Part shown: positions 8,915 through 24,014 of the stretch, in pieces
Numbering within the stretch: the first letter of the stretch is position 1
Layout: each line of letters starts with the position of its first letter
From: a virus
Virus record (IMG/VR): IMGVR_UViG_3300034071_000568
Location: 1 to 24,067 of that record
Length of the DNA: 24,067 bases
Strand: one strand, 5' to 3'
The notes under the pieces: model-generated
What the model was told of the DNA's origin: nothing
Seen by the model: the letters and a program-made list of their open reading frames with translations, nothing else
Database searches by the model: none
Position numbers and translations under genes: made by a program

Positions 8915-10798
8915 TTAGCTCATCATCTTTCCATAAGAACCGCCCCTGCGCTTGGAATCAGCTACAGCAGCTTTTGTTGCTTCCATGATTCTTGGCATCA
9001 TAGACTGTATTTCTGTTCTTACTGTTTGTGCAACTCCAGTTTGTATATTGAATGTTTGATTAACAGTAACACTACCCATAGCATCATTAGGAGTAATAGA
9101 GCCATTCATATTAGGGGTAAATATCTCTGCACCTTTCTCACCAACTAAGTAAGAAGTTCCAGCGCTTACATTACCGCCCAATGCTCTACCACCACCCATA
9201 TCAAAGGTGTTTAAGCCTGTAGAAGTTTGAGTAGGTGTTACAGATCCACCAAAGAAACTTCCTAAAGAGCTAGAGATAAAGCCAGCCAAAGGTGCTGTGA
9301 TAGATTGCCTAATTAAAATTCTAGCTATGTCATTGAGAATAGATGCTGTCATTTTTGAGAAGGCATCTGCTACAGAAGTTGTTCTACTCATAATCCCAAG
9401 GAGAGCATTGTCTAAACCATTCATAGCATTTGTAACTACACCGCTAGTAAGATTTGCTAGATTCTTTGATTCATTTATATATTTAGATAATGCGATTTGT
9501 GCGCCATAAGCATAACTAGAATTCAAATCATCCTGAGTTTCTTTTAATTTTGTAGCAACTTCAATAGCAGCAACATAGTTTAAAGAAAGTTCTTTAATTC
9601 CTTGAGCATATTGGTCAGGAGTAATATTTTTTTCTGCTAATTGTTTAGCCATAGATGTTGCAGCATCTTCAACCATTTTTTGCAAACTTAAAAGATTAGC
9701 TTGTAATTTCTTTTCAGTATCAGAAGAAAATACATTTTGCATTTCCATATTAATTTTATTTGTTAAATCTTTAACAGAACTTAAAAACTTCATATTGCTT
9801 TCATTAATTGAAGCTAATCCTTTTGTATAATCTTTTAAATCAGCATCAGCCTTCTTCTTTGGTTTGTTTGCATTGTTAGCTATTTCTTCTTCTATGCGCT
9901 TTTGTTCTTTTAAAAAGCCTATGCGACTTTGCAAACCTTTTTGTAAGTCTAAATTGCTCTTAGAATTTTCTTTTCCTAAAGAAGTATTCTTTTCAATAGT
10001 TGCATTAACTTTTGCTAATGCACCTTCTAATTCTTCTATGTTATTGCCTAGAATTGCATAAGGCTGAATAATAGAATTAAGTGTTTTAAAAAATTCTAAA
10101 AGCGCTGGAATTGCTCTGCTTAGAATTCCATTAGTAAATTTATCAAATTCTAAACCTAGCTTTCTAACTTCATCTTGCAATTTACCAGCAGCTTCAGCTT
10201 GCTGTGCAGTTACCACAGCATTCATCTTTCCATTTTTTGCTAAATCATCTAAAAATGGAGAAATTTCTTTTGCGGATTTACCAAAAATAGCAGTAATAAT
10301 AGCTGCTTTATTTGCATCATCAGCATATTCTTGTAATGCTCTAGCTACTGCATAAGTAGCATCTACTGTATCCATCTGCCTTAATTCTTTAGAAGATAGA
10401 CCAATAGCTTTTAATGCTTTTTCGGTAGTATTTGCTTCATTTTCAACACTAAATAAAGCCTTATTAAATTTTATTAAAACAGATTCAAGGGTGTTCATAT
10501 CAACACCAACAATTCTTGCTTGGCTTGCTAAACCTGATAAATTCTCTACAGTTGAACCAGTAGTTTTACTAATATCCTCAAGCCTAGCCATAGATTCAAT
10601 GATTGAATTAACTCCGCTAGTAACTTGGGCTACAACTCCAGCAGTCAAAAGAGTTTTAAAAGCAGTAGAAACAAAGCTAGTAGAAGATTCAATCTTCTTC
10701 ATAGCCCTATCAGTTTCATAGGCTGCTTTAGAAAGTGCTTCTTTAAATTGCGCTGTTTCCGCAGTAAGAGAAACTACAAGCTGACCTAATGATGCCAT
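8915..10798 (-). CDS. Tape measure protein
   Basis: A 627-residue tape measure with the lambda-H-like layout. Seen: N-terminal LGQLVVSLTAETAQFKEAL, a hydrophobic patch around 46-68 (STAFKTLLTAGVVAQV), long Lys/Glu-rich helical stretches in the middle, an amphipathic region about 480-515 (ILNDIARILIRQSITAPLAG), and the conserved RALGGNVSAGTSYLVGEKG with EIFTPN near 540-562. Known: tape measure length sets tail length at roughly 0.15 nm per residue, so a tail around 90-95 nm is expected; that is inference. Begins by a one-base overlap with the stop of the long chaperone form. Confidence 0.94.
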   Translation of the reverse strand: MASLGQLVVSLTAETAQFKEALSKAAYETDRAMKKIESSTSFVSTAFKTLLTAGVVAQVTSGVNSIIESMARLEDISKTTGSTVENLSGLASQARIVGVDMNTLESVLIKFNKALFSVENEANTTEKALKAIGLSSKELRQMDTVDATYAVARALQEYADDANKAAIITAIFGKSAKEISPFLDDLAKNGKMNAVVTAQQAEAAGKLQDEVRKLGLEFDKFTNGILSRAIPALLEFFKTLNSIIQPYAILGNNIEELEGALAKVNATIEKNTSLGKENSKSNLDLQKGLQSRIGFLKEQKRIEEEIANNANKPKKKADADLKDYTKGLASINESNMKFLSSVKDLTNKINMEMQNVFSSDTEKKLQANLLSLQKMVEDAATSMAKQLAEKNITPDQYAQGIKELSLNYVAAIEVATKLKETQDDLNSSYAYGAQIALSKYINESKNLANLTSGVVTNAMNGLDNALLGIMSRTTSVADAFSKMTASILNDIARILIRQSITAPLAGFISSSLGSFFGGSVTPTQTSTGLNTFDMGGGRALGGNVSAGTSYLVGEKGAEIFTPNMNGSITPNDAMGSVTVNQTFNIQTGVAQTVRTEIQSMMPRIMEATKAAVADSKRRGGSYGKMMS

Positions 10799-11345
10799 TA
10801 TTTTTCTTTCCTCTTAACCCTGTGTGCAAACTGCGCTTTTATTACATCTGATGCTTTCTGTTTTGGTAGTGTTTCTAACTTGAAGTATGCCATCCATTCA
10901 GTTATCTCTGCACTATCCATCCTTCTTAACATCTCCCCAACTGGCATTCCCAATTTCAGAGCTAAACTAAAGTAGAACTGTCTTTGGGGATGGGCTTTTA
11001 GTTTTTTACTAGATTATCTAATTCTTCCTCAGTTAATCTATTTAACTTCTGCGCCACCTTTACACATCTCTCAAGAGCAGTTGCGGATTTCTTGCCAAGC
11101 TCAACAGCATCTTCACTATGAAAGATCCTCTTACCTTGCTCATCCACAGCAGTAAAGGAAACTAACCTAGCTCTAATATTCTCTAGATTCGCACCTTTAC
11201 CGCCTACCAATCCCTGTTCCCAAGCATCTCTAGCTTCACCAGTCATCATGCTGATGTAAACTTCACCACCCCACTCAGGAACTTTAACTAACTCTTTTTT
11301 TAAATCTACTGCGCTTAGTATTGCTTCTTTATTTAGGATTGCCAT
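10798..11345 (-). CDS. Tail assembly chaperone, long frameshift form (G-T-like)
   Basis: A -1 slip on A AAA AAC (11007-11001) bypasses the short form's stop and opens 67 more residues, giving a product of 182 residues. The added part begins LKAHPQRQFYFSLALKLGMP and includes MDSAEITEWMAYFKLE followed by a Lys-rich tail. The pattern LGxxxxEMLxRMDSxEIxEW is typical of the T part of lambda-like G-T and HK97 gp14-15 chaperones. The frame has no stop until TAA at 10800-10798, which overlaps the tape measure ATG as TAATG. It explains the apparent 200 bp gap. Known function: the G part coats the tape measure and the T part recruits tail tube subunits. Confidence 0.88.
10998..11345 (-). CDS. Tail assembly chaperone, short form (G-like)
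   Basis: A 115-residue protein, the zero-frame product. Seen: an N-terminal segment FNxxx-type AILNKEAILSAVDLKKELV, WGGEVYISMMTGEARDAWE, FTAVDEQGKRIFH and a helical LTEEELDNLVKN end. This is the pattern of HK97 gp14-like chaperones that coat the tape measure during tail assembly. The stop TAA directly follows the slippery heptamer, so a minor longer product is also expected. Confidence 0.92.
   Translation of the reverse strand: MAILNKEAILSAVDLKKELVKVPEWGGEVYISMMTGEARDAWEQGLVGGKGANLENIRARLVSFTAVDEQGKRIFHSEDAVELGKKSATALERCVKVAQKLNRLTEEELDNLVKN
11001..11007 (-). other. Slippery heptamer A AAA AAC for -1 frameshifting
   Basis: Reads A AAA AAC in the correct zero-frame phase (gtA AAA AAC), directly followed by TAA. 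The -1 frame from here encodes a chaperone T-like domain. A GAGGAA tract lies about 17 bases upstream; no strong downstream stem was seen by eye. Confidence 0.85.
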
Positions 11346-12125: not shown

Positions 12126-12601
12126 TTTTTTGCCAGTTTCTTTGCTTGATCTTGAATTGCCTTGCCTAATCTTTCTTTCATTACATCCAATATTCTACTT
12201 TTTGATCCCTCAAAAGCGGGGCGCATAAAAGGTTTAGCTTGCATTTTAGCAGTTCCAAACTCTAAAAAGCGCCAATAATATGCTTCACCTTGAACTGTGT
12301 ATTTCTTACCTACCCTATTTAGCCTTCTGTTTCTTGCAGTATTGGCATAGGCTTTCTTGCCTTTCCTAACACCTACCAAATAAGTTTCTCTACCTGTGCC
12401 TGAGCCACTTCTACTTCTATATCTGTAGATTGCCTTTTTAAGATTGCCTGTATCTCCTGCTGGCGCTTTAGCTATTGCAGCATCAACTACAACTTTTGCA
12501 GATGCGGATACTGCTGATCTAAGAGCCTTTTGCTGGATCTCTATAGGAAGTTGATTTAGGGCTTTTTTTAGTTGCTCTAAACCTAGAATTTTTACTTGCA
12601 T
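12122..12601 (-). CDS. HK97 gp10-like tail completion protein
   Basis: A 159-residue protein of the HK97 gp10 family. Seen: VKILGLEQLKKALNQLPIE, ALRSAVSASAKVVVDAAIAKAP, GDTGNLKKAI, a basic middle with KGKKAYANTARNRRLNRVGK, YYWRFLEFGTAKMQAKPFMR and a Lys-rich C-terminus. The family acts at the head-tail joint or tail completion. Start overlaps the preceding stop by one base, and its own stop overlaps the next start. Confidence 0.93.
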   Translation of the reverse strand: MQVKILGLEQLKKALNQLPIEIQQKALRSAVSASAKVVVDAAIAKAPAGDTGNLKKAIYRYRSRSGSGTGRETYLVGVRKGKKAYANTARNRRLNRVGKKYTVQGEAYYWRFLEFGTAKMQAKPFMRPAFEGSKSRILDVMKERLGKAIQDQAKKLAKK

Positions 12602-12915
12602 TATGCAGGCTTCTTAACTAAAACTTCTAAACCATCACCCCTACCAATTTCAGCAATGTAGAGAATGTCATAATCCACACCATCATGGGCGAGCTTCGCT
12701 GTTTCATCAAAATCTTCTCTGTAGCGCATTCTAATCTTTAAGCTGGCTTCAGGTATAAATTGTGCTACAGAAAAATACTCTCTACCGCTTACAGGCATTA
12801 TTTCTGCCCAAACTGTAGCCAACACAGAATAGGTAAGAATCTCTGCGCCATAAGCATCCCTTGTAGATGTTTTAACCTTAATCTGAACTCTGCGATCTAA
12901 TTTGCCTGCTTTCAT
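12601..12915 (-). CDS. Head-tail adaptor (SPP1 gp16-like head closure)
   Basis: A 104-residue head-tail joining protein. Seen: MKAGKLDRRVQIKVKTSTRDAYG, VWAEIMPVSGREYFSVAQ and LKIRMRYREDFDETAKLAHDG, then YDILYIAEIGRGDGLEVLVKK. This beta-barrel pattern with VWAxIxPxSGxE is the hallmark of the Phage_H_T_join family. It should close the head after packaging and offer the docking face for the tail. In standard operons it directly follows the gp6-like connector; here the four-gene sugar cassette separates them. Confidence 0.93.
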   Translation of the reverse strand: MKAGKLDRRVQIKVKTSTRDAYGAEILTYSVLATVWAEIMPVSGREYFSVAQFIPEASLKIRMRYREDFDETAKLAHDGVDYDILYIAEIGRGDGLEVLVKKPA

Positions 12916-13499
12916 ATCTCTCTCACAAATACAAATGTGCCTATATCTTCTCTACCTATTTCAGTTTCCATAAGGTTATATTCTAAAAGACTAAAGCCAA
13001 AATTACTCATAAATCTTTCTAGACCTTTATTAGTCCAATACCAACAATGCTCATCAGGGCGAAAATGCTTGCTTCTTAGGATATGTTCTTTATCCTCATA
13101 AACAGGGCAAGAGATAAATGCATATTTTTTGATATAGCCTAACAAATGGCTAGGGTTATGAATATGCTCTAGGCTATCCCAAAAACTCATGGAATCTAAA
13201 GGATAAGGATCTTTATATTTGCCAGCTTCTTTAAGCCATGCGATTGCACAGGGATTAATATCAAACCCATAGGCATAATCTAGAGCTTTAACAAATGCGC
13301 CTGATCCTATTCCTATATCTAGAATCTCATCCATCTTATAAGCCTGAACTAATTCCACCCTAGCATTATTAAGGGTTTTCCCTATTTCTGTATTTTCCAT
13401 TACTAAATACTTTTGCCAGTAGGCTTCATCATAGGGCTGATCTTCTACAGGGTAATAGCCAATCCCAAACTTAGGAAACCAAAGAAGTTTACTTTCCAA
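12912..13499 (-). CDS. SAM-dependent methyltransferase, class I
   Basis: A 195-residue methyltransferase. Seen: motif I LDIGIGSGAF (60-69), an acidic GFDINP end of strand two (78-83), FWDSLEHI (106-113) as motif IV and a late FVFVREI strand. The segment KHFRPDEHCWYW (144-155) is a conserved-looking feature. The N-terminus WFPKFGIGYYPVEDQPYDE is part of the same family in phages of aquatic bacteria, as far as I recall, which supports the TTG start at 13497-13499 rather than the in-frame ATG at residue 34. It overlaps the preceding glycosyltransferase by 11 bases and the head-tail adaptor by four. Expected partner of the sugar enzymes, for example to methylate a transferred sugar. Confidence 0.88.
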   Translation of the reverse strand: MESKLLWFPKFGIGYYPVEDQPYDEAYWQKYLVMENTEIGKTLNNARVELVQAYKMDEILDIGIGSGAFVKALDYAYGFDINPCAIAWLKEAGKYKDPYPLDSMSFWDSLEHIHNPSHLLGYIKKYAFISCPVYEDKEHILRSKHFRPDEHCWYWTNKGLERFMSNFGFSLLEYNLMETEIGREDIGTFVFVREI

Positions 13500-14331
13500 G
13501 AAGCACCCCCAAATTCTTCATAAGAGAATCATTGTTAGCTGTTTCTACATCCATAGGAATGTAAACCTTTCCCAATCTATCAGGATCAACCCAGTTAGTT
13601 TGAAAGGCTCTATGAGAGAAGTAATTAGACCAAAGCATTAAAGTTGGTGTGTTTATGTGCTGGCTAACTATGGTATTACCGCCACACCAGCCAACAAATG
13701 CAGAAGCCCCTTTAATCAAGCCAAAAAGCTCTGTAAGGCTAGTTTTGCCACAAAGGTTAATTACACCATTATCTTCTAGCTCTTGGTTAAATGGCGAATC
13801 CCATGAGCTTCCTGTAAGGATTAATTTGTAGCCTTTAATTTGTTGCATGAAACTTCTAATCTTTTCAGGTGGCATCTTGGCTACCCAATCAGTAAACATC
13901 CCATGATTAGAGAAATAAAAAATAATGTAAGGCTCACTATATGGGCTTATGCAGTCCTCTGTGTTTATTTTGTAATTCCAATTTGTAGAGTATTGGCGCA
14001 TGATTGTGTCCATGTTATGCCCTATTCTTAGGCTTCCATTTACACAAATAAAATAATCATAGCCTTTGAATCCGCTTACAACTTCCTTAGATCCTTCCAT
14101 ATACATCTCATGGAATAGTCGCTTTTGCTGTCTGCCCATAGGCTCATTGTCATAGCCAGCAAACTTTACAAAAGGAATGCGACTTACAAAGCCATCTGCC
14201 CTAGGTCTACCATCAAAGTTCCAAACTGTAATCTCAGGGATTACACCTTTGCATTCTTTCTCTATGAAAGATTCCATCTTCAGCATCACCCAATGAATAT
14301 CTCCGATACCGCAAATGGTTAGAATTCTCAT
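13489..14331 (-). CDS. Putative glycosyltransferase, family 9-like
   Basis: A 280-residue protein. Seen: an N-terminal LTICGIGDIHWVMLKMESFI Rossmann-like strand and helix, PYIIFYFSNHG near 134-144, YKLILTGSSWDSPFNQEL (168-185), INLCGKTSLTELFGLIKGAS (191-210) and AFVGWCGGNTIVSQHINTPT (211-230). The last three stretches match the C-terminal nucleotide-binding half of GT9 (ADP-heptose:LPS heptosyltransferase-like) enzymes, where GxxxGxxH-like residues hold the donor. Here the usual His region reads GGNTIVSQH. It overlaps the gene before it by four bases and the one after by 11. Phage copies are probably not LPS heptosyltransferases in the strict sense; donor and acceptor cannot be read from sequence. 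Confidence 0.82.
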   Translation of the reverse strand: MRILTICGIGDIHWVMLKMESFIEKECKGVIPEITVWNFDGRPRADGFVSRIPFVKFAGYDNEPMGRQQKRLFHEMYMEGSKEVVSGFKGYDYFICVNGSLRIGHNMDTIMRQYSTNWNYKINTEDCISPYSEPYIIFYFSNHGMFTDWVAKMPPEKIRSFMQQIKGYKLILTGSSWDSPFNQELEDNGVINLCGKTSLTELFGLIKGASAFVGWCGGNTIVSQHINTPTLMLWSNYFSHRAFQTNWVDPDRLGKVYIPMDVETANNDSLMKNLGVLLGK

Positions 14332-14861
14332 CTGAACTTTCTGCTTGCTTGATAATGCTCAATTATAGGGTTTACCCTAGGATAGTAATCTTTAGATAAG
14401 TCATAGATAAAACAATATTCAGGTGGAAGCTCAATAATTGAAATATCTGAAATAGATTTTAAAGCCTGATCTAAGTTCTTTTGATCAAATACTTCAGGAT
14501 TTTCTTGATTTATATCAATCCATTTTTGTAGAAGTTCAGAAGTCTTAGCTGTGTTATTAAAATAAACTGTGCCTGATAAAAGTTCTTTGCCTTTAAATCT
14601 ATGAAATGCCACATCACAATTAAGCTCAAAGAATATCTTAGGATAAGAAAGCACCATGCAATCAGCATCTAGCCAAACTACAGCACTTTCATTTTGTAAT
14701 TGTTGGCGGATAAATATAGGCTTGTAGTGTGTATTTGCATCCCAAGATCCCTTATCTTCTATCCCTGCGACATGGTAATTTAAAAGATTAGATTCTAATG
14801 ACTGTCTTAGCTTCTGCGCTTCTTGAATATATTGAGGAGTGTAGTAACTAATGAACTTCAT
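14328..14861 (-). CDS. Putative GT-A glycosyltransferase
   Basis: A 177-residue protein. Seen: MKFISYYTPQYIQEAQKL, a KPIFIRQQLQ helix, then VVWLDADCMVLSYP with the DxD motif D65-A66-D67 that in GT-A enzymes holds the metal and sugar nucleotide, VAFHRFKGKELLSGTVYF, DQKNLDQAL and a C-terminal EHYQASR. The pattern is that of small nucleotide-diphospho-sugar transferases. It overlaps both neighbours by four bases (ATGA-type), so the four genes are probably translated as a coupled unit. Acceptor unknown: virion protein, host surface glycan or DNA are all open. Confidence 0.8.
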   Translation of the reverse strand: MKFISYYTPQYIQEAQKLRQSLESNLLNYHVAGIEDKGSWDANTHYKPIFIRQQLQNESAVVWLDADCMVLSYPKIFFELNCDVAFHRFKGKELLSGTVYFNNTAKTSELLQKWIDINQENPEVFDQKNLDQALKSISDISIIELPPEYCFIYDLSKDYYPRVNPIIEHYQASRKFR

Positions 14862-15412
14862 AAGACTTCTGTTATAGCCTTTCTAGGAAAACAGTTGATG
14901 GCTGTATCTCTACTGCAATTAATTATTTCTAAGCCAGCATTTTGCATAAGAGGATAAGCATTCTCCATATGCCTAACCCATCTTCTCATATCAGGGCTTT
15001 TGTGCAATCTACCTTGATGCCTACCATGCCAATGCTGACCTGAGTTTTGATAGTCATATCCTAATAATAGAATGCGCCTAAATCCATGAATAAAAGCTAG
15101 GTTTAAAGCCTGAAAGCCACCATTGTTGCCAGTTGCAATTCTTTCTGTGTCGCAGAATAAAGCCTGTGCATCATGTTCAATATAATTTAAATTATATTTC
15201 TTGGATGCATTTTCATTAATTGTCCATTTAGCCCCTGCGAAATCAGGCTTATAGTAATCCCACCATTCTTCATCACAGGCATAAAGAACATCTGCCCAAG
15301 GTGCAATCTGATAAGAGTTATTGACTACATAGACCGAAGCCTTGCCTTGGCAATAATCAACATCTTCTTTAGTTAGGCTAGTTCCACTAGCTATGCAAAC
15401 AGCAGTTTTCAC
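14858..15412 (-). CDS. MptE/DUF115-like putative sugar-transfer protein
   Basis: A 184-residue protein. Seen: an N-terminal CIASGTSLT glycine loop after a short beta strand (residues 6-14), YVVNNSYQIAPWADVLYACDEEWW, a GNNGGFQALNLAFIHGFRRI helix, ILLLGYDYQ and an HWHGRHQG stretch around residues 128-135. This resembles the MptE-like/DUF115 group related to motility-associated and sialyltransferase-like proteins, many of them linked to glycan transfer. The start is GTG (15410-15412), overlapping the connector stop; the nearby ATG is out of frame. First of four linked genes placed between two connector genes. It may transfer or bind a nucleotide sugar; the substrate is not evident from sequence. 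Confidence 0.72.
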   Translation of the reverse strand: MKTAVCIASGTSLTKEDVDYCQGKASVYVVNNSYQIAPWADVLYACDEEWWDYYKPDFAGAKWTINENASKKYNLNYIEHDAQALFCDTERIATGNNGGFQALNLAFIHGFRRILLLGYDYQNSGQHWHGRHQGRLHKSPDMRRWVRHMENAYPLMQNAGLEIINCSRDTAINCFPRKAITEVL

Positions 15413-15990
15413 ATTCCTATATTAAGCCTGTAAAACTGCAATAAGTTTTGAACTGTAGGATTAACTTGATAAGCCCTTTCACCGCCTGCTTCTCTATTGG
15501 AATATAGATCACCAATAATAAGCATCATGGCAAACTTTAAAGGATCAGGCAAAGGATTTGTATCAGGGCTACCACCTGAAGTAAAGCCAACTACATAGCG
15601 AATCTTTACATTGTTTTCTTGATCATACAGATTAGGATAAGTTACATCATAAGCAGGATAAATACTTGCTGGCTCAGAGTAATTATCAAGAATATACTGA
15701 GTAGAGCTTAGAGTTTGCTCAACTCCATTTTCATCTAAATATTTAACTGAAGTAATAGATTGAACTGGAGAAGATAAATCAATCTTATCCTTCCATCCAG
15801 TAAGTGCAAGCTCAACTGTTTGTTGGGCAATAAATCTATTTAGGTAATTTTCTAGATGTTGTCTAGAAGCTGTAATTAGTGCGCTGATTAGCGCTGTATC
15901 TGTTGGGCTATCATCTAAGCGCAAATACTCAGATACATCTGCAACAGTAATAGGCTCAAAAGATGGTGCAGTAATAATCTTAGTTGCCAT
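15409..15990 (-). CDS. Head-tail connector (HK97 gp6 / phiE125 gp8-like)
   Basis: A 193-residue adaptor expected to form a ring under the portal. Seen: the family's N-terminal VADVSEYLRLDDSPTDTALI pattern, a helix with ASRQHLENYLNR, then IDLSSPVQSITSVKYLDENG and a C-terminal helix DPLKFAMMLIIGDLYSNRE. This order matches gp6-like connectors (phage_connect_1 and phiE125 gp8 families). Its stop codon TGA overlaps the GTG start of the next gene by four bases, so translation probably passes straight into the unusual sugar-enzyme cassette. Confidence 0.92.
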   Translation of the reverse strand: MATKIITAPSFEPITVADVSEYLRLDDSPTDTALISALITASRQHLENYLNRFIAQQTVELALTGWKDKIDLSSPVQSITSVKYLDENGVEQTLSSTQYILDNYSEPASIYPAYDVTYPNLYDQENNVKIRYVVGFTSGGSPDTNPLPDPLKFAMMLIIGDLYSNREAGGERAYQVNPTVQNLLQFYRLNIGM

Positions 15991-18585: not shown

Positions 18586-18614
18586 ATAATAAACTAAAAC
18601 TATCAAGCTACCAA
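18586..18614 (-). promoter_or_regulatory. Candidate sigma-70 promoter for the capsid genes
   Basis: On the minus strand TTGGTA (18614-18609, four of six matches to TTGACA) is followed after exactly 17 bases by TATTAT (18591-18586, five of six matches to TATAAT). Most of it falls in the 39 bp gap before the protease gene, otherwise unusual in this tightly packed operon. Transcription would start near 18579. Assigned by eye; AT-rich DNA yields such matches by chance. Confidence 0.35.
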
Positions 18615-19478
18615 TAGCAATAGCAAATCTTCATCAGGAATACCAAGCTGACCTTCTGCGATTAAATCATTTGATGCAACTGAAGTTTGTAGTGAAAAGA
18701 CATTTGCTCTAGCGCTAATAAATATCTGACCGCTTGCAGAAATATTTTCTACAAAAATTTGTGTAGTTACTGGAACAATTAAAGCCTTAGCCCCTCTGCT
18801 TTCTAATGGTGCATAGTGTTTTCCACCTCTACCAACTTCTGATGCAACTTCTTGTCCACTTGCGCTTACTGATCCTAAATTACTTTGTAAACCTATACCA
18901 TTTACAGAGAAAACAGGATTTTGTGTAGCATTTGCACTAATTTCTGCAACAAAACTGCTCATTTGTATGCCTGAAATAGATGTAGAATCCGCAATTTCTG
19001 CTGTTACATTCCCTAAAAATATTGATAAATCTAAGCCAGTAATGGTAGATGTGGCGCTTTGTGTGCCATTTGCGCTGATATTTTGAGCAGTAGATGTGGC
19101 TTCTTGCCCTGTAATTGATACTAAATCTGTAACTATCGGGCTTATATTACCTACTGCTGAAGCCATTTGTAGCCCATTTGTAGCTACATTGCTATTTTGA
19201 ATACCACTTGCAGTTATGGTTTCTGCGCTTGAAGTAAGGGTTATCCCTGATATTTGTATAGAATCAGAAACAATTTCACCAATACTGCCAGCAGTTGAAG
19301 TTAATTCCTGACCTACTAGCTCAATAGTTGAGCTATTTATGCCACCATCATCAAAATTATTTAATGCTGAATCAAAAAGACCATAGCCATCATCAAATAG
19401 TATTGGCGGATCTTGCCATTCATCAAAGGTGCTAGGCTGATTATCAAAATCACCTAAAGCACTATCAAAGTTAGGCAT
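18603..19478 (-). CDS. Repeat-rich putative virion protein with FD-heptad N-terminus
   Basis: A 291-residue protein I cannot assign to a named family. Seen: residues 4-43 hold six Phe-Asp pairs (F4, F11, F18, F28, F35, F42) spaced 7, 7, 10, 7, 7. Residues about 52-212 hold seven degenerate repeats of about 23 residues, each roughly hydrophobic-x-Gly-(I/L/Q)-x-(A/M/L)-(T/S)-S...G-x-(I/V)-S-A, with regular Gly and Ser positions suggestive of stacked beta strands. The C-terminus (213-291) is non-repetitive and ends in an acidic, Leu-rich tail. Short Gly/Val/Ser repeats like TGVxATSxVGxVxVxG are familiar from proteins of marine phages. It sits between portal and protease, so a head-associated structural role is inferred. 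The same FD pattern recurs in the J-like tip protein. Confidence 0.75.
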   Translation of the reverse strand: MPNFDSALGDFDNQPSTFDEWQDPPILFDDGYGLFDSALNNFDDGGINSSTIELVGQELTSTAGSIGEIVSDSIQISGITLTSSAETITASGIQNSNVATNGLQMASAVGNISPIVTDLVSITGQEATSTAQNISANGTQSATSTITGLDLSIFLGNVTAEIADSTSISGIQMSSFVAEISANATQNPVFSVNGIGLQSNLGSVSASGQEVASEVGRGGKHYAPLESRGAKALIVPVTTQIFVENISASGQIFISARANVFSLQTSVASNDLIAEGQLGIPDEDLLLLLVA

Positions 19479-19891
19479 CAGGCAATTCTAATAAGCGCTG
19501 TAGCCCCTGCTGCTGGTAGATCAATGGTGAAAGTTCCTGAAACAGAAACTACATCACTACCAAAATCAAAACAGGCTACAGCTTTGTTTGTTTTGCTTGA
19601 GTTATATATCAAGCAACCTCTAGCAGTTATGGTGCTATCTGCCCATGATGGATCAGAGAAAGTAATATAAGCTGTGCTTGTAGATAGACCACTAACATAT
19701 CCAGTTAAGGTTTTTCCGCCTGCATCATAGCCTGTGCCACTAACTTCATTAGAAGAAGAATAGGCTGTAGTGCCTGCACCTAAAGTAGCAGAGCTAGTAT
19801 ATAAAGCAATCTTATAAGTATCTGTGGAAGCATGAACTCCCTCAAGAATCTCTTGCTTATAGGAATTACAAATTGCTGTAGTGATTGCCAT
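19478..19891 (-). CDS. Small beta-rich protein, probably a virion component
   Basis: A 137-residue protein of unknown function. Seen: an opening MAITTAICNSYKQEILEGVH, then DTYKIALYTSSATLGAGT, a Ser/Thr/Gly-rich middle with EVSGTGYDAGG, and ITFSDPSWADSTITARG followed by CLIYNSS and a C-terminal AAGATALIRIA. Composition and alternating polarity suggest an all-beta fold without signal peptide or membrane segment. From memory, proteins of this type are widespread in phages of aquatic bacteria, usually among structural genes and without assigned role. It lies between portal and protease and overlaps the next gene by one base (TGATG). A head decoration or vertex protein is possible, but that is inference. 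Confidence 0.8.
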   Translation of the reverse strand: MAITTAICNSYKQEILEGVHASTDTYKIALYTSSATLGAGTTAYSSSNEVSGTGYDAGGKTLTGYVSGLSTSTAYITFSDPSWADSTITARGCLIYNSSKTNKAVACFDFGSDVVSVSGTFTIDLPAAGATALIRIA

Positions 19892-23615: not shown

Positions 23616-24014
23616 TCAATTATTATTTTCGATAGCTTTTGCCTTATGACCGAACCCACCATCCTCTTGTGCTGTCTTTCTACTGTGGCAAGGCTTACAC
23701 AGGGCTTGATGATTATCTTCTGCCCAAAACAAATCCTTATCCCCTTTGTGTGGCTTGATGTGATCTACCTCTGATGCAGGGATTATCTTTCCATCTTCTA
23801 AACAAATTAAACAAAGAGGATGTTGCTTTAAAAATGTAGAAGAATACTTTCTCCAATTCCATGTGTACATTCGGCTATAGTCTGCATTGCGAATACTTTT
23901 GCGCTTATTCTCTTGCACTTGATGTATTGCTTCATGCTTAGTGCAGTATCTACCTTCATCTATTGTCTTACCGCATCCTGCATAGTTGCATATTGTCTTT
24001 GGGCGCAAAGCCAT
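23616..24014 (-). CDS. HNH endonuclease of the packaging module
   Basis: A 132-residue HNH nuclease. Seen: an N-terminal Cys/His cluster (C9, C14, C24, H27) that may bind zinc, then a classic HNH fold with a CxxC pair (C68, C71), VDH with the first His at 85, N101 and the CxxCH pair with C106, C109 and H110. Known: in HK97-type phages a free HNH protein next to the terminase genes works with the large terminase in cutting cos DNA and is needed for packaging and head morphogenesis. It is the first gene of the minus-strand late cluster here, and the small terminase follows after 143 bp, which fits that role. It could instead be a homing endonuclease, but position and the Cys-rich architecture favour packaging. 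The start is an ATG with only a weak AGGGA-like site about 8 bases upstream. No gene lies further upstream in the window. Confidence 0.9.
   Translation of the reverse strand: MALRPKTICNYAGCGKTIDEGRYCTKHEAIHQVQENKRKSIRNADYSRMYTWNWRKYSSTFLKQHPLCLICLEDGKIIPASEVDHIKPHKGDKDLFWAEDNHQALCKPCHSRKTAQEDGGFGHKAKAIENNN

Follow-up and report, generated by a model that had tools for sequence, protein, structure and literature searches.

A cassette of four genes inside the head-neck operon

The window analysed here is the whole 24,067-base virus record IMGVR_UViG_3300034071_000568 from IMG/VR, whose minus strand carries a standard HK97-type morphogenesis operon running from terminase to tail tip. Within this operon, between the genes of two head-tail connector proteins, lies a cassette of four genes (15412-12912, minus strand), here called A, B, C and D, which encode three putative glycosyltransferases (GTs) and a methyltransferase. 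The gene upstream of the cassette, Ad1 (15409..15990, minus strand), specifies a gp6-like head-tail adaptor or connector (PF05135, 31.1 bits with a cut-off of 21.2; phrog_442 and phrog_40), and the downstream gene, Hc1 (12601..12915, minus strand), a gp16-like head-closure or completion protein (PF05521, 75.6 bits; phrog_25). All four cassette genes are read from the minus strand: A (14858..15412) begins with GTG and overlaps the stop codon of Ad1 by four bases, B (14328..14861) and C (13489..14331) begin with ATG, and D (12912..13499) begins with TTG and overlaps both C and Hc1. From Ad1/A through A/B, B/C and C/D to D/Hc1, the joints are overlaps of 4, 4, 4, 11 and 4 bases that read GTGA, ATGA, ATGA, TTGGAAAGTAA (11 bases) and ATGA. 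An original prediction for this stretch had placed four genes here, joined by overlaps of 4-11 bases of the GTGA and ATGA types, and was correct to the base. It also held that the gp6-like and gp16-like genes are normally adjacent, and indeed the site is empty, i.e. Ad1 is directly followed by Hc1, in the compared contigs L154-L156 and L173-L177 (L numbers label contigs or loci used for comparison).

The complete A-B-C-D order, which the original prediction had proposed to look for in related phages, recurs at this site in a further 16 IMG/VR contigs, with about five incomplete contigs in agreement. Compared with four relatives (about 60-92% amino acid identity), the ratio of non-synonymous to synonymous substitution rates is about 0.06-0.20 for the four genes, the exception being D in L031 with 0.33; all four genes are thus under purifying selection. 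Because so many contigs keep the order and the ratios are mostly low, the arrangement is more than chance. D of L031 shares only 72% identity with its counterpart, against 83-97% for most of the genes around it, which suggests a local exchange. Recent foreign acquisition of the cassette as a whole is unsupported, since its GC content (33-39%) is near that of the rest of the operon (34-42%).

Enzyme families of the four proteins

Protein A (184 amino acids) matches phrog_4603, a family called alpha-2,3-sialyltransferase, with an E-value of 1e-44, and a profile of its own family finds the Campylobacter GT42 sialyltransferase CstII (E 2e-5, or 2e-4 with a wider sequence set). The same profile also matches, with E about 0.09, MptE and the Maf-type entry 5mu5 of Magnetospirillum. 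The CstII match required the family profile, as a phmmer search of the PDB with A as a single protein gave noise only. In a Foldseek search with the AlphaFold2 model of A (pLDDT 93.4), CstII (1ro7) was the sole high-probability GT match (probability 1.00, TMq 0.64), with all remaining matches at TM values of about 0.2-0.46. Because profile and fold both point to CstII, A is assigned, at the level of sequence and model, to the GT42/Maf/MptE superfamily with GT42 as its nearest branch. A and CstII have the fold and the SG...GxD region in common, but A is shorter (184 versus about 259 amino acids) and does not have the conserved active-site tyrosines; H127 is nearly invariant in the A family, and the positions equivalent to the CstII tyrosines are variable. 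Since A scores only 13.8 bits against PF01973 (MptE-like/DUF115), well under the gathering cut-off of 34.6 (its homologue in phage PAJU2 reaches 17.0), it is better described as a GT42/DUF115-like putative GT than as MptE.

B (177 amino acids) is a small, GT8-like putative GT of the GT-A type. Its family profile matches GT8-type enzymes with E 2e-4, its score against PF03407 (Nucleotid_trans; 20.3 bits) is under the cut-off of 22 bits, and the aspartates of the predicted DAD motif, D65 and D67, are invariant in the family alignment. The AlphaFold2 model (pLDDT 94.3) has a GT-A fold with this DxD motif and finds glycogenin (E 6e-10) as well as the capsid glycosyltransferase A64R of the virus PBCV-1 (2p6w/2p72, TMq 0.74-0.76). 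The fold of B is therefore close to that of an enzyme modifying a viral capsid, but this likeness is at the level of fold only, with 15-16% identity and other GT-A enzymes scoring nearly equally. A tblastn search with B found two phage records only.

C (280 amino acids) is a GT9-like putative GT of the GT-B type, with 24.1 bits against PF01075 (cut-off 22), E 0.013 against heptosyltransferase II of lipopolysaccharide (LPS) synthesis, E 0.001 against TIGR02195, which is under the cut-off of that model, and an invariant G8-x-G10-D11. No phage record was matched by C in tblastn. A further GT9-like family of phages, C2, is marked by the signature GLGDNIYQR and comprises 74 open reading frames (e.g. 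L046:7160-7999, L034:6994-7923 and L013:7748-8575); it is only remotely related to C. The GT9-like class also includes protein O-glycosyltransferases, namely the bacterial autotransporter heptosyltransferases (BAHTs) TibC and Aah; similarity is weak between D3 orf12, from Pseudomonas phage D3, and TIGR04414 (E 0.02) and between C2 and TibC (E 0.7). At its C-terminus, C2 has an invariant CxC...HxC cluster that faintly resembles the iron finger of TibC, which consists of four cysteines (PMC4358343); with three cysteines and one histidine, C2 does not reproduce this four-cysteine finger, and the C protein of the window has no C-terminal cysteine cluster. In L048 (7992-9789) and L050 (7980-9952), two phages whose set of capsid genes differs, a tandem pair of C-type GT9-like genes precedes D, i.e. 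a GT is duplicated.

D (195 amino acids) is a class I methyltransferase dependent on S-adenosylmethionine (SAM), as seen from PF13489 (Methyltransf_23; 42.9 bits, cut-off 27), phrog_6564 (E 5e-65) and an invariant D-x-G-I-G-x-G motif (DIGIGSG). Profile searches and structure prediction thus sustain the four family calls originally made, with GT42/DUF115-like preferred to MptE as the description of A.

This enzyme content raises the question of DNA hypermodification, i.e. sugars being attached to modified bases as a counter-defence, and phage GTs are indeed known to glycosylate DNA (a review statement to this effect is in PMC12619734). Such a function seems scarcely probable here: D does not belong to a DNA-methyltransferase family (Pfam), the cassette sits in the structural block, and no match to thymidylate synthase/hydroxymethylase (PF00303) was found in eight records of relatives or other cassette carriers, among them four relatives of 30-35 kb.

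Recurrence and exchange of the cassette in other phages

Beyond the window's close relatives, a profile search for D in viral contigs returned at least 572 stretches, and we examined 67 further D-family loci chosen without reference to their neighbours (a few of them on contigs already counted above). A GT9-like gene, C or C2, lies within 2.5 kb of D in 66 of the 67 and A within 3.5 kb in 49, with a structural gene within 3 kb in 50, many contigs being short. The commonest order is MCP-A-C2-D-Ad1-Hc1-Neck, where MCP is the major capsid protein gene; L071, L121 and PAJU2 have Ad1-Hc1-A-C2-D-Neck, and prophages of Mixta and Buttiauxella carry A-C2-D upstream of terminase. Away from the site seen in the window, the cassette families thus occupy the MCP/Ad1 gap, the Hc1/neck gap or a position just upstream of terminase. 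Named phages with the triad of A, a GT9-like gene and D are D3, PMG1, PAJU2, D14C and Psp6. In a scan of genomes the single D protein found nothing, and the D profile gave 25 loci; prophage hosts were Bordetella, Pantoea, Mesorhizobium, Bradyrhizobium, Methylophaga, Citrobacter, Mixta and Pseudomonas, with one match in a metagenome-assembled genome of Chloroflexi. The hosts of triad prophages are therefore mostly Gram-negative bacteria, and in some loci A is missing and only a GT9-like gene and D are seen. For the Citrobacter locus, no close homologue in E. coli was found.

The closest published counterparts are Detrevirus and relatives, i.e. the Pseudomonas phages D3, PMG1, PAJU2 and D14C, which carry relatives of A, of the GT9-like gene and of D (orf7 / orf12 / orf13) in the head-neck block, with 34-35% identity to A and 39-43% to D of the window; in D14C the GT9-like gene is annotated as such. 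In contrast to the window, the GT9-like gene of this group belongs to the C2 family, there is no B gene, and the genes are placed differently with respect to Ad1 and Hc1. The original suggestion that the exact combined position is unusual is not supported, given that the same families occur at several head-neck sites and that the published D3 and PAJU2 genomes have A, D and a GT9-like gene in the connector block. These relatives have been public for years, mostly as 'hypothetical' proteins, and the arrangement is therefore not new to databases; in a literature search that covered subscription journals thinly, no paper was found that recognizes the cassette as a module.

Among relatives that share the MCP of the window, the Ad1-Hc1 site can be occupied by other sets. 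L011, L142 and L158 (MCP identity 72-79%) carry A-X-GT-A2, and L146 carries A followed by a capsule-type GT, an FkbM methyltransferase, a GT9 and a GT8 enzyme; the set of L200 is closely similar to that of L146, whose spacing is shared by L179 (61%). The replacement sets have a logic in common, namely A, two to three GTs of different folds and usually a methyltransferase, and most of their components are non-homologous. This common logic with non-homologous parts is the strongest argument for a single job, the making of a short, often methylated and exchangeable glycan. Moreover, over longer distances the divergence of A, C2 and D follows that of the MCP (Mantel r 0.55-0.66, P 0.001), which makes their association with head genes an old one.

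An important question is what such a glycan would be attached to. LPS or capsule on the host surface could be modified late in infection, which would provide superinfection exclusion or reduce progeny adsorption to debris. LPS core is the classical target of GT9 and GT42 enzymes, A weakly matches the Kdo transferase WaaZ (E 0.04), the GTs of the replacement sets resemble capsule enzymes, and prophage hosts are mostly Gram-negative. In many unrelated phages, however, the cassette lies within the head-neck operon and not beside lysogenic-conversion genes, and its expression would fall just before lysis; in addition, the enzymes are all of small size, and their translations, read without a formal test, gave no sign of membrane anchors. 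Overall, host-surface modification seems unlikely. The location could also reflect mere hitch-hiking in a late operon, with a host protein, a small molecule or RNA in the infected cell as the true target. A gap between structural genes can tolerate unrelated cargo, but the recurrence of the same functional set at several head-neck positions in unrelated phages and its divergence in step with the MCP make such a target distinctly unlikely.

A candidate system for glycosylation of virions

The original prediction had left open whether a methylated sugar would be placed on the virion, the host surface or DNA. Position, gene overlaps and co-inheritance with head genes favour the virion. We therefore propose, with a probability of roughly 0.6, that the cassette is an exchangeable unit whose enzymes act in the cytoplasm while particles are being assembled and provide a virion protein with a short O-methylated glycan; the identity of this glycan, its acceptor and the sugar donors is inferred. 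Late in infection, the products of the operon would be made in the order Ad1, A, B, C, D and Hc1, with translation probably coupled via the overlapping stop and start codons. While heads and necks are being formed, the three GTs may draw on host nucleotide sugars and build up a short oligosaccharide on one of the structural proteins of the phage; D would then O-methylate this oligosaccharide. As the enzymes are GT42-like, GT9-like and GT8-like, the donors in a Gram-negative host might, at low confidence, be a CMP-linked acidic sugar (for instance a nonulosonic acid or Kdo), ADP-heptose or a sugar of that kind, and a UDP-hexose, which would speculatively result in an LPS-core-like glycan. The likely acceptor is the MCP or some other protein of the head, neck or tail, and the likely benefit is shielding of the particle or altered adsorption or diffusion, with the type of glycan being quickly exchanged between lineages.

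Virion glycosylation by phages has already been reported. The mycobacteriophages Che8 (gp110), Corndog (gp38) and Myrna are reported to glycosylate capsid and tail-tube proteins with their own GTs (Freeman 2023 via PMC12363180, PMC11256854, PMC12619734, PMC12894461), and a methyltransferase has been implicated as well (PMC12363180, PMC12894461, PMC12619734). The cassette, with its putative function, has different enzymes and a different gene location: no mycobacteriophage record was matched by B, C or D of the window in tblastn, and the mycobacteriophage Maravista has its GTs towards the 3' end of its genome, unlike the connector-block site seen here. A further parallel is the pmgO-pmgP-ppp-pmgQ cluster of phage P1, where pmgO is homologous to A (34%), pmgP has an A/MptE-like profile match and pmgQ carries a glycosyltransferase annotation; in contrast to the window, this cluster has no GT9-like or D gene and adjoins baseplate and tail genes.

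Several observations weigh against glycosylation of the virion by this cassette. A does not conserve the active-site tyrosines of CstII. Among the structural proteins, none was found whose occurrence follows that of the cassette. The block of L011 and its relatives lacks a methyltransferase, and methylation is therefore not universal. Finally, pmgO of P1 is non-essential for plating (PMC10695390); it is therefore not a core assembly factor, which fits decoration without proving it.

The last point also bears on the idea that A, and possibly the other proteins, have turned from enzymes into factors that serve the structure or assembly of the particle. The A homologue of PAJU2 (ORF010) is annotated as a structural protein in GenBank, P1 pmgO is named as a putative morphogenetic gene, and the cassette stands among connectors. 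Yet the motifs expected of active GTs and methyltransferases are invariant, and besides the dispensability of pmgO there are relatives without these genes altogether, so we give this idea very little credence. With virion glycosylation as the preferred function, the PAJU2 annotation may rather mean that the enzyme itself stays with the particle.

On a larger scale, and tentatively, since we regard it as somewhat less than an even chance, the cassette may exemplify a widespread and previously unrecognized head-neck locus for glycan variation in tailed phages of Gram-negative bacteria, in which a conserved GT42-like anchor is combined with interchangeable GT/O-methyltransferase sets that decorate the virion with LPS-core-like methylated glycans and are swapped to switch the glycan. 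If glycosylation of the particle is correct, glycosylated virions would be no speciality of mycobacteriophages but widespread in phages that infect Gram-negative bacteria, the laboratory phages P1 and D3 among them, and this would affect how particles adsorb, how stable they are and how the immune system recognizes them; furthermore, PHROG families 4603 and 6564 as well as P1 pmgO would be given a function. Particle glycosylation thus becomes a question that can be tested directly in D3, PAJU2 or P1.

Acceptor candidates were also considered within the window. C-terminal tails rich in serine and threonine (S/T), an acceptor idea by analogy to mycobacteriophages, show no enrichment in the MCP and a mild one in the major tail protein. 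Between portal and protease lies a gene for an S/T-rich repeat protein (18603-19478, minus strand), which is hypervariable, with 44-55% identity where its neighbours keep 80-95%, and may serve as a head fibre or as decoration of the head. As an obligate acceptor it was rejected: it is absent in the cassette-bearing L008, and L155 and L156, which lack the cassette, keep a gap of similar size at this place. Immediately downstream of the portal gene, a conserved protein of 137 amino acids with 28% S+T (19478-19891, minus strand; phrog_644) is encoded, which is likewise absent in L008.

Elsewhere in the window, a frame of 51 codons (10798-10953, minus strand) between the genes for the tail assembly chaperone and the tape measure protein is conserved at 84-100% in most relatives and at 65% in L045, and may be a second tail-chaperone reading frame. 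Two short genes (1036-1509 and 23616-24014, both minus strand), judged by eye only, resemble HNH-type endonuclease genes; one of them adjoins the lysis genes, and the other is located at the terminase end.

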